A stretch of 64,000 nt of DNA from Chaetoceros tenuissimus. Its lineage: Eukaryota; Bacillariophyta; Thalassiosirophyceae; Chaetocerotales; Chaetocerotaceae. The stretch is from positions 868,001 to 932,000 of the forward strand of contig BLLK01000045.1 of assembly GCA_021927905.1 (NCBI GenBank). The letters run 5' to 3'. The position numbers and the translations under genes are program-made. Shown piece by piece: positions 56,197 to 61,093 of the stretch (position 1 is the first letter of the stretch; every line of letters begins with the position of its first letter). A model generated the notes under the pieces. It was not told the origin of the DNA, searched no databases, and was given only the letters and a program-made list of their open reading frames with translations.

Positions 56197-59100
56197 CTAT
56201 TCTTTCTTTTCTTCAATATCTTTCTTTGCTTTGTAACCTAACCATGCATTTTCAATAGTTTCTACTGAACGGTGAATTCTTCTCATGTAAAAGATTGCTC
56301 GTTTTCTATCTCGGACATCAGCTCCACTGACAGGGCTAGCTGTAGTCGCAATGCGCATAATGCTGTGAGTGCGATCAATGCGGTAAGATAGAAGTCCAAA
56401 TGAAATTAATCTGAAGAATCTCTCTACTTTTGATCCCATTTGATGAAACATTACAGACATTGCCAGAAATCTCTGTAATGACGCAATTCGAGACTCGTAT
56501 AGCTCCTGCAAAAAGTGTTAATTAGAAACGCGCTTGAATCCGTTCGACAAATATAAGCAAAAGATATGCTTACCTGAGCAAAGTTTTGCGACTTGAGTGC
56601 TCCTGTTGCAATCTGCTTCCTCCCATTCCGAGTCTTTTTAACTAGCTTTTCTCCAAAGAAGTTTTCACGTGTGTCAGGCAACACTTGAATCAAGCCTCTT
56701 CGGTCTCTAATAGGCGGCTTAGTGTATTCTTCGATTTCGAGCTCATTGCTCTTCATAATCTTAAAGAAATCATCAATGCTTAGTGTACCATTGTCATTCT
56801 TCACACTACAAGTTCAAATCTCAGCGAGTTAGCCGTGCAATCATCACTAAAGTAGAACATTTTCATCAGGTGTGATTTACTTACAATTTTTCGAAGACAA
56901 GAAGCAATGCTTCCCTACTCATACCACACTCAATATTTTGTAAGCCAGTCACAAACTCTTCCTTACTTAGCAATCCGTTGCCATCCAAATCAATCATTTG
57001 AAATACTCTCAGAGCTGCAGAGTTCCATTTCTTCTCTTTGATGGCAACATCGATCATTTGTGACAATGGAAATTGGCTCGAGTCATCGATACAATTTTCG
57101 TTCTGCATATTAGCTACAGTGGTACTTTCGAGTGATTTATACTGTCCAAGAAGAGCTGCACTACTTTTACCTTTCGTGAGAGCAGCACGGCGTCTATCTG
57201 GTTTCTCTGAACTATTTTCTTCATCCTTAAAGGTAACTTTGCCCTTTTTCAACGTGTTATCGAGAAGATTATTTTCGTGGGCCTGTATCATTTTATTTCT
57301 AGTAAGACTGTCGTCAAGTGCCATATTAGTACGTGTATGAGATTTACGAAGACTGACGCTGACATCTAGACCAAGGTCGTCACCTTCCTTGTACCCGAGT
57401 AAATATTCACAAAGGAATAGTGGACGAAATCTCTTTAAAACTATTGCACGCTCAGTGAGTGGAAGTTTGAACGGGTTGTGACCGATTGTAATACTCTCAC
57501 AGGTACTCCCAAGACTTTGAATTGAACTTGCTTGATTAATAGAGAGACTTGCTGCTTGCTCTGATGCAGTTAGTGCTGAAAGCCTCCCGTCTGGTCTCCC
57601 ACATATAAGCAAGGATCCTCTGACGACACGATGTGTCATGCGATGTACTAAGTGATCGCTAGGATTCGCGGAGAAAACCGTTAGACCAGCAATGGAATAA
57701 GAACATGCAAATATCTTGCTTAAAAATGCCTCCGACGCCTGAGCTACCCAAGGAATATCCGCGATCACAACAGTTCGACCAACCATCCTGTGCAACAAAT
57801 GTCTTCTCTCTAGGACGCGTAGGATTATAATATTGATCTGTGGAAGAAATATGTATATCAAAGCATCTAAAAAGCGAAGGAAGTAGAACACTTTTGAATC
57901 CGCGGCTAATCCAGATCCTGTTGCAATTCCACTAGCCAAAGGATACCCACTAACGACCGTACCAATGATGTATATAATTGTCATAATATAGGCCTTTACA
58001 TTCTCTAATATATGCTGTGCCCAAACATTCCCTGCTTCACGCAGAGACTGTTCGGTACTTCCACCATCATTGAAAACCTTCAGTCCAGCTACATCATATC
58101 CAGCAATATCTTCAAGCGCCTGTATATTCTCTCTGTTACAGCACTCAAGAATTTGGAGATCTTTGAGTGTAACTACGGCACCTGTCACTTTTTTGTACCT
58201 ATCATCACTAAGAATGACTACAGAAATGAATTCGAAGATATTCGTAAGCAATTGATGAGTTGCTGCAACTGAGACCAAGCAAGGCTCAGCAGGCCTCATA
58301 CTGAAAAAAAGAAGGAATCAATTAGTAAATATTTCAAAGTAATATAGCGCATATCTAAAAGTGAAACTTACCCACACCCAGTCACAAAAATCCTAGAGTT
58401 AAATACAAGTTGAAAGCCTATACCTTCATTATTATCAAATGACCTCAACTGCTTCCCAATTTGTGTATCCCATTCCGAAGTAACAACGAATATACTATCG
58501 GTCTTGCTTTGGAACAAACTTGAACATCCTAATGGTGAAAATGTGCCGCCACTATGCGAAACAATTATCTATTTTTAAAAGAATATGACAGAAAGTTAGT
58601 AAAGTCAACCGAAAATGTGGTCAAAAGAAAGAATTAGAAATATTTGACAGGAAAAAGGATTAGAAGTGACAGACTTACAGTAATAGCATCATCTAAATTC
58701 AGAGATTGCTCGGAGATCGAGTGTCCAATAGTCGGAATGTTGATTTCTTCTTGTCCATAGAGACCAAGTAATTTGTTCGAACTGACAGCAACAATGCGTA
58801 ATTTGGGAAATGATTTCTGTAGGTCAGATGCAAACTGCTCAGCAAGCCACAAAGAAACTTCACATCCCGTAACTAAAATATCAACCCTATTGGGACATGT
58901 GTGGAGCTCTTTGTTTGCATATTTTTCCAAACGAGATTTCAAGCATCGACCTAAGTTCCAAGCTGTTAGTCTGTTTAGACTGAACATTGAATCATTTCCT
59001 ACACCAAGCCAGTCATCTTGGATAGATGCACATATTCCGGGTGTATCCCTGATATCGTTTGCAATGAGATCTGGAGAATCTGGCTGTAAGTCTGTGATCA

Positions 59101-61093
59101 AACGATTCTTTGTTAACTTTGTCATGCGGTGGTAAAGTAGAGTACCTTCTTTATGGTGATGATGTCCTTCTTCTGAAATTATGTAAAGTCGAGCTTGATT
59201 GTGCATTACAGACTCAGCTTTGATATCACGATTTGGGACAGAAACAGGACTAGTCTCGTATATGTCTTGAGCGTAATCAACAAGACAAATCTCTCCTCCA
59301 AGGTCGTCAAGATCCAAACGTAGGACATCCTCTTTCAGATTTAAAATTGATGTATCGAGTGAGTTTCCTGAAGGAAACATTTCTGGGCTATCCATGTTAA
59401 GTCCTGCCTTTACTGCAGCTTGTTCACTGCCCCATAAAATTAGCTGCTTTCTTGGATAAAACGCCAAAGACATAGTTTGCCCTCTAGCGGCAAGGCATAC
59501 TTGGCGATGAGCGTCTAGAGAAGACATTGCACAGAGCCCAAAACTGCCTTTAGCATTTGACATGAAAATACGAACGGTTTGTAGCAGGTCATTATCGAAG
59601 AATGCATTTACCACGGCGACAGCAAAATTGTAAAGTCCTGCACCTGTTTCTTCGCTCCTAACAAATTTCTTCAATGATTCACTGATGGCTGTGTCCTCTG
59701 TAAGATTGCATGCACATTTTCGAGCGAGATCCATTCTTTTCCCTTCATCCTCGGCCATGATATGTAAAGGGTAAGGTGTTGTTGTCTGAAATTCATGCAA
59801 GGAATCTTCAAATACTTTAGCTATGACATCGTACTCGCGATGAGAAGGCAAATCGATGTCGGCATCAATTCTACTTGTCGGAAGACCGAGACACACGACA
59901 TATCTCACAGATAGCATAAATGAGCCTTTGGAACGGATGAGATCAATTACTCCGGCAATAGCTGCACTATCAACTGATGAAGGTCTAGGTGTCTCCAGAG
60001 CTTTTTCGAGCCACTCCTGAATAGTTTCAAATTCATAGGTCTCCCCATTAAGAGAGTAATACTCAAAATCACCGTTGTGAGAAATAAAATTCTCTACTCT
60101 TGTCTTAGTAGGAGTTGCTATTTCTCTCACACCAGACTTTGTGAGTCTCTTCATGATGGCGGTCCCTTTCACTGCATTACCAAGACTCAAATCTTCAAGA
60201 TCATTGTCCTTTAGTTTCTCCATATTGTAGACATTCAACGTTTTTGGTTTTGACCATTGGTGAGGATGTGTACCATCAAAAGTAGCTTTAGAAGTTGTTG
60301 CAAATCTCGTATGACCAGCAAAGAAAACACGCTCACGAATTGTATCCAAATAATTAGGATTCTTATTCAGGGATGGAAACGACCAATTTTTCATCTTCGC
60401 ACGTAGCATTTTGCTCAAATCACCTCTTTTGCTCTTCACAACCCTGGTCCTTGATCCATGCATATCAAATGTCGGGTGGCCATCTGTTGTATCACCCTTT
60501 GTCTCTTTGCACCTAAATGTGACTATACCTCCACTTTGAGCTCCTCTCATCATTGTAATCTGGATCATTTTCTCAATGATATCATATATCAAATTTCCTC
60601 CTTTTTCAAACCATGCCCGATGCAAAATAATAGCACCAAAGTTTCCACAGAAAACAGTAAGAACATTTGGGGCAATAGCAGCTCTTTCAAGCGTAAACAA
60701 CTGTCGAAATCCTAATGCATCAGTTGCAAATGCATCAACAACAACTAAATATGAAGCAAACAAATATAGAGGTTTCTTATCTGCGAATCCTTTTGCTCCA
60801 TTTCTATGGAGAAAGTGAAGAATAATAGCTATGGCAGTACTTGCGAACCACCCAGAAGCTTTTAACAACTCCACTTTCCATGATTCCTCAGGATATGGTA
60901 CAGAAACTCGGCGGAAGAAAGTTGCCTCCAACAAGAAAGTTTTCCAAAGTCCGTTTTGGCATAGTTCGGAAAGTGTCACAAGTCCTAGTAATAACGCACA
61001 AACCAAATGTGCAAGCTCATGTAGAACAGCGAATCCTTGGTAATAAAGGATTGAGTTCAGGTAGTATCTCCAACCCTCACCACTGATAATCAT
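56197..61093 (-). CDS. Membrane GlmS-like chimera: HExxH segment, class-II amidotransferase, SIS domains, EF-hand
   Basis: Five minus-strand exons: 61093-58679, 58568-58372, 58300-56885, 56805-56574 and 56505-56197; introns of 110, 71, 79 and 68 bp are GT-AG and in phase; 1,522 residues. Residues 17-130 are hydrophobic helices carrying HELAH (25-29) in the style of M50 site-2 proteases, with aspartates D120/D125 as a possible third ligand. From FCGNFGAII (Cys149) to about 600 the order follows the GlmS glutaminase domain: RGAQSGG (183-189), GHTRFAT (260-266), SHNGDF (338-343), GSFGLC and GSEQAAV. A SIS domain follows (ILVTGCEVSLWLAEQF; IIVSHSGGTFSPL in exon 2; EPCLVSVAATHQLLTNIF in exon 3). 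Exon 3 also has two membrane helices and a second, weaker SIS-like part. A canonical EF-hand (DLDGNGLLSKEE), a degenerate one (NDNGTLS) and a basic helical tail end it. GlmS makes glucosamine-6-phosphate; catalysis here is unproven. Confidence 0.8.

Follow-up and report, generated by a model that had tools for sequence, protein, structure and literature searches.

Gene model and second copy

The window analysed here is a stretch of 64,000 nucleotides from the diatom Chaetoceros tenuissimus (assembly GCA_021927905.1, contig BLLK01000045.1, positions 868,001 to 932,000 of the forward strand). Its minus strand carries, at window positions 56197-61093, a gene of five exons encoding a protein of 1,522 residues, in which a class-II glutamine amidotransferase domain begins at an internal cysteine, Cys149, and is preceded by a hydrophobic region containing an HExxH motif. 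The four introns (110, 71, 79 and 68 nt) all have GT-AG boundaries. A first-pass annotation of the window had proposed a single gene of this length, with HELAH in its N-terminal region and Cys149 within FCGNFGAII, and this model is confirmed, HELAH occupying residues 25-29. The gene, referred to as copy A, and the parts of it that matter most for its interpretation are as follows:

Exons 61093-58679, 58568-58372, 58300-56885, 56805-56574 and 56505-56197, minus strand: whole gene, copy A; GT-AG introns, stop at 56197, collinear copy on contig G000:C50
60650..61093, minus strand: N-terminal hydrophobic region, residues 1-148, delineated by hydropathy; 27% identical to the second copy over 133 aligned residues, no Pfam match
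61007..61021, minus strand: HELAH, residues 25-29 (HELIH in the second copy), read in both copies
60719..60736, minus strand: DAFATD, residues 120-125, candidate third metal ligand; conserved ASYLxxxDAxxTD, with two retained Asp in the third hydrophobic segment
59264..60649, minus strand: class-II glutamine amidotransferase domain, residues 149 (Cys) to about 610, delineated by hhalign and aligned active-site positions

In the genome scanned (41.0 Mb, 68 contigs), a second copy (copy B) lies on another contig, G000:C50, and is collinear with copy A from the N-terminus through the C-terminal region, with 53% identity over 1,374 aligned codons. The motifs common to both copies include HELxH, FCGNFG, GHTRFAT, HNGD, a hydrophobic hairpin and an EF-hand; one intron, in the EF-hand region, is shared at identical position and phase, and the remaining introns differ. 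In every region tested, the proportion of synonymous differences (pS 0.72-1.0) is at or near saturation and the proportion of nonsynonymous differences (pN 0.15-0.52) is well below it, a pattern suggesting that selection maintains both copies. The spliced model was derived from genomic sequence only, and it might in principle join two genes falsely; however, HELAH and Cys149 share one exon in copy A, 372 nt apart, and a single exon in copy B as well, and copy B is collinear over the whole length, which makes a false join hardly credible.

The amidotransferase domain and its buried cysteine

A comparison of the two-copy alignment with a reference profile of seven GlmS/PurF-type sequences showed that the domain starting at Cys149 corresponds to a class-II glutamine amidotransferase (84% probability in hhalign, P 7.4e-6) and that Cys149 aligns with Cys1 of GlmS. 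The score of 46.8 was reached by none of 60 column shuffles (best 24.4), the reversed alignment scored 13.7, and the same domain gave P values of at least 0.19 against the SIS, M50B, M50A and RseP profiles. Identical residues in all nine rows, the two copies and the seven references, are C149, R183-G184, the His, Arg and Thr of GHTRFAT, H339-N340-G341 and D375, which we take to have the active-site roles of their counterparts; an HPH motif is aligned with the GlmS-type rows only. The first-pass assignment of this domain therefore holds on the strength of the profile comparison and the shared motifs, with the Pfam and NCBIfam models remaining below their cut-offs; we regard the domain as established and enzymatic activity as likely.

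Several results weigh against this assignment, or against the maturation discussed below. The profiles of copy A or copy B taken alone reach a probability of 42-44%, on the GHTR-HPH segment; Pfam GATase_6 scores 13.9 bits on the excised domain of copy A against a cut-off of 27, the excised domain of copy B has no Pfam match at all, and none of the curated models for amidotransferases reaches its cut-off (NCBIfam GlmS, 9.9 of 381 bits). AlphaFold models made from single sequences had a mean predicted local distance difference test score of 34 and 46 and were unusable. There is no recognised cleavage site before Cys149, Phe adjoins Cys in both copies, and the whole body of evidence is genomic sequence. 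As to the other searches, the Pfam matches of the whole copy A protein belong to EF-hand families only, a PDB sequence search gave no credible match, and a sub-threshold match to Pfam DUF4347 was noted in copy B (13.1 of 24.6 bits).

The nucleophile cysteine is encoded at residue 149 of copy A, behind a hydrophobic region, as the first-pass annotation had stated, and it is buried likewise in the diverged copy B. No start codon lies near it: in copy A, no further Met follows residue 1 before Cys149 is reached, and an N-terminal Cys149 can therefore arise by proteolysis only; in copy B, several Met residues lie upstream of the cysteine, the closest at 57 residues. The residues preceding the cysteine, APNVLTVF in copy A and TTNPVTFF in copy B, have Asn, Thr and the last Phe in common. 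The precursor of amidophosphoribosyltransferase (PurF, MEROPS C44.001) cleaves itself to expose its cysteine, as stated in an excerpt of PMC4756867, and in a canonical glutamine:fructose-6-phosphate amidotransferase (GFAT) encoded on contig C16 of the same genome, a presequence precedes the CGIAG cysteine, which is residue 92 when numbering starts at the first Met of the frame; a buried cysteine alone does not, therefore, call for an HExxH protease.

The HExxH region and the C-terminal half

The N-terminal region is the least conserved of the regions tested. Hydropathy places HExxH inside a hydrophobic segment in both copies; in copy A, the peaks lie at about residues 21-39, 74-92 and 109-127, and a fourth, at 139-157, spans Cys149, and in copy B, the hydropathy is 1.54 for the HELIH segment, only 0.83 for the middle segment, 1.21 for the third and 1.30 around the cysteine, with an extra peak at residues 7-25. 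Counting His as charged, 22 charged residues are aligned in this region, and the seven that both copies retain include H25, E26, H29, D120 and D125, the Asp pair having been chosen after the fact. The His-to-Asp spacing is 95 or 100 residues in copy A and 92 or 97 in copy B; the SpoIVFB ligands, given in an excerpt of PMC11486902, are H43, H47 and D137, with a spacing of 94 from H43 to D137. An M50 gene of the C. tenuissimus genome, on contig C19, has a spacing of 92, and three others have 143-152, so the spacing varies within the M50 family. The chance expectation of an HExxH motif in 1,522 residues of the composition of copy A is 0.054.

The HELAH motif in a hydrophobic N-terminal region is thus present and kept in copy B, but its first-pass attribution to M50 (site-2 protease) was not confirmed. 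Pfam searches of the N-terminal pieces of both copies revealed no M50 match at E<=10, and genome scans with PF13398 and PF02163 (E<=1) listed other loci, the copy A locus not being among them. The LDG motif, described in an excerpt of PMC10202637 as part of the site-2 protease core, is absent from the N-terminal region, where the Asp of the third segment sits in DAxxTD. In hhalign comparisons with M50B, the P value was 0.0018 for the pair, 0.0052 for copy A alone and 0.13 for copy B alone; the pair profile against the RseP profile gave 0.085. The M50B score of the pair was reached by none of 60 full shuffles and by 1 of 80 in which the HExxH block was kept, and the M50A score by 19 of 60 shuffles of the latter kind; the similarity to one of the two M50 profiles comes from the HExxH block alone, and the profile evidence is marginal. 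The method is weak here, as the positive control gave only P 0.0018 for M50B against M50A, with 4.3e-5 for RseP against M50A. A putative M50 identity of the region draws on motif, hydropathy and spacing.

M50 genes occur elsewhere in the genome. Three of them lie within 47 kb (G000:C14:185024-232068) and have long N-terminal regions and HExxH, with DGGR in two (frames read); strong M50B proteins with an SDA motif are encoded at G000:C32:3305121-3305666 and G000:C34:2284539-2285156 (115 and 114 bits).

The remaining features of copy A lie downstream of the amidotransferase domain:

58198..58888, minus strand: SIS1-like region, residues 736-905, with introns inside and SHSGGT resembling SxSGxT; weak profile match, no Pfam match
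57814..57987, minus strand: hydrophobic hairpin, about residues 976-1033, probably membrane-inserted; hydropathy in both copies
57373..57792, minus strand: most conserved stretch tested, residues 1041-1180, at the SIS2 position; 82% identical to copy B, no Pfam match in either copy
56751..57015, minus strand: EF-hand pair, residues 1300-1361, with intron 56806-56884 inside; Pfam EF-hand_7 in copy A, EF-hand_6 in copy B
56197..56591, minus strand: C-terminal region, residues 1415-1522; 67% identical to copy B, no Pfam match in copy A

The first-pass annotation had spoken of SIS domains in the plural, of which the first receives weak support and the second none. Residues 681-905 match a seven-sequence SIS profile in register with P 0.018, which is the best of several cuts; P values ranged from 0.03 to 0.48 when the region was cut differently or compared with SIS1 or whole-SIS profiles, and for an earlier cut the score was matched by 10 of 60 shuffles. 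At the SIS2 position, residues 1041-1180 gave no profile signal (33 of 60 shuffles reach the score), and neither copy has a Pfam or NCBIfam SIS match.

The inserted membrane helices of the first-pass annotation correspond to the hydrophobic hairpin, which hydropathy indicates in both copies and which is 62% identical between them; lesser peaks occur in copy A at residues 882-900 and 1062-1080. A match of RseP to the hairpin of copy A (residues 995-1044, exon 3; 21.6 bits where the NCBIfam cut-off is 477, E 9.9e-5) is probably due to chance or composition. In its favour, hhalign gave P 0.00025 for copy A alone and 0.0035 for the pair, whose score was reached by none of 60 shuffles; it was nevertheless rejected, because copy B has no match (P 0.25 alone) and because, by eye, the Asp of the RseP LDG motif falls on Glu in copy A and on Gln in copy B. 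A short hairpin-like stretch (NAKAYDMSFAYIIGT...SGIAIAFGL) is located upstream of copy B, at a distance of about 1.7 kb, on the plus strand (G000:C50:52306-52536, L011:807-1037) and looks like a decayed fragment.

The EF-hand passes Pfam cut-offs in both copies, in agreement with the first reading of the sequence: three models do so in copy A (EF-hand_7, 40.4 bits against 30) and one in copy B (EF-hand_6, 29.1 against 25; EF-hand_7 reaches 27.7 of 30). Read by eye, each copy has one canonical and one degenerate loop, and the region is 30% identical between the copies. The C-terminus of copy A (window 56197-56300, about residues 1495-1522, TIENAWLGYKAKK) resembles, by eye, an IQ-type calmodulin-binding helix; in copy B, the C-terminal part gives a sub-threshold Pfam CaMBD match (14.2 of 25 bits, E 0.045), which is absent in copy A.

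Proposed maturation of the protein, its relatives and other loci

The explanation favoured here, to which we give a probability of about 45%, is that the gene encodes a membrane-anchored precursor of a class-II amidotransferase matured by proteolysis. The core of the protein would be a class-II amidotransferase of the N-terminal nucleophile (Ntn) type, accompanied by a region that may be an SIS-like partner, by the hydrophobic hairpin and by a Ca2+-binding EF-hand, and residues 1-148 would act as membrane anchor and pro-region. Proteolysis before Cys149 would free the nucleophile, most simply through the amidotransferase domain itself, as in PurF, or else through a cellular protease; the freed domain would hydrolyse glutamine, and Ca2+ binding would probably modulate this glutaminase. 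If a regulated cleavage exposes the cysteine, diatoms would possess a switchable glutamine-using enzyme linked to Ca2+ and the membrane.

This precursor has to be weighed against a protein that is never cleaved, in which the amidotransferase fold would be a sensor of glutamine or sugar phosphate on the membrane, the EF-hand adding a Ca2+ input. The lack of a known cleavage site, the additional EF-hand and hairpin and the presence of a separate canonical GFAT for the metabolic work are what such a sensor would lead one to expect, but, despite a 47% residue difference, both copies retain the nucleophile cysteine and the active-site residues of the alignment, and a pure sensor would not need them; this alternative is rather unlikely. 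The HExxH motif, for its part, may well be incidental, the N-terminal region being a plain membrane anchor with neither metal nor protease activity, which is compatible with the favoured precursor. That the motif is known from two sequences only, in a weakly conserved region and with marginal profile evidence, is consistent with this; the retention of HExxH and both Asp in a region of 27% identity, and the low chance expectation of the motif (0.054), argue the other way, and the incidental motif is a real possibility that falls somewhat short of even odds.

Under a more elaborate alternative, put forward in the first-pass annotation and without direct support, the N-terminal region would be a minimal core of the site-2-protease type, cleaving its own chain ahead of Cys149 and thereby maturing the amidotransferase. 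It would account for the placement of HELAH and DAFATD in hydrophobic segments one and three of copy A, for the retention of both motifs in copy B, with their charged residues among the few kept in this region, for a spacing from His to the first Asp (95 and 92) close to that of SpoIVFB (94) and of the M50 gene on C19 (92), and for the M50B similarity, which no full shuffle reaches and which equals in strength that between M50B and M50A; SpoIVFB itself cuts off a pro-sequence, according to an excerpt of PMC11486902. Against these points stand the lack of M50 model matches in either copy, the missing LDG motif, the low hydropathy of the middle and third segments of copy B (0.83 and 1.21), the lack of signal from copy B alone, the scores reached by shuffles that keep the HExxH block, the low conservation of the region and the spacing of 143-152 in three other M50 genes of the genome, and self-maturation of this kind appears quite improbable. 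The fullest version, in which an Ntn-type glutaminase would share one polypeptide with a minimal intramembrane metalloprotease core, the protein cutting itself or a partner chain just before Cys149 to switch on the amidotransferase at the membrane, where Ca2+ would be an additional input, is still less to be expected. If the metalloprotease core does cut before Cys149, it would be a case of regulated intramembrane proteolysis with an enzyme nucleophile as its product, and two unrelated protease-like chemistries would be joined in one chain.

The comparison with known systems indicates partial likeness to three of them. As in GlmS and GFAT, the class-II motifs follow in the same order from the cysteine onward, and SHSGGT aligns with SQSGET of the SIS domain; unlike in these enzymes, the cysteine lies behind 148 residues, there are large insertions, a hydrophobic hairpin and an EF-hand, and no second SIS domain is recognisable. 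The class-II domain and a precursor cysteine that must be exposed (by self-cleavage in PurF, according to the excerpt of PMC4756867) recall PurF, but Pfam finds no phosphoribosyltransferase domain here and the pro-region of 148 residues is hydrophobic. The site-2 proteases and other M50 proteins (SpoIVFB, RseP, M50B) share HExxH in a hydrophobic segment and an Asp in a later segment, near the SpoIVFB spacing cited above from PMC11486902, and differ in having LDG and family-model matches, the profile similarity being marginal.

The C. tenuissimus protein is not the housekeeping GlmS, as the GFAT gene on C16 (GATase_6 and two SIS domains) is separate. In the prokaryote genome and viral collections, two short peptide patterns and tblastn found no confirmed relative, which says little about other diatoms; one DNA pattern found none in viral contigs, and tblastn of residues 149-805 against plasmids gave two chance-level matches (E 3 and 7). 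No membrane-bound, EF-hand-bearing class-II amidotransferase was among the literature matches listed; the architecture is absent from the literature searched, without a comparison with a eukaryote protein database, and its novelty is not established.

Some further loci were noted. The canonical GFAT (G000:C16:2634761-2636427, L025, minus strand) has an Arg-rich presequence and a hydrophobic stretch before Cys92, an arrangement that points to import into an organelle and processing. At G000:C50:28915-29085, 25 kb from copy B, lies a partial GATase_6 match of 33 bits. A pattern for 18S rRNA had no match in the genome. The silicon-transporter family, which also occurs in some other silicified protists, has 11 matches, in keeping with a diatom genome; three silicon-transporter units stand head to tail on the minus strand at G000:C17:442278-446357, as a multi-unit transporter reported with a 1,459-residue open frame, one of the matches containing stops.

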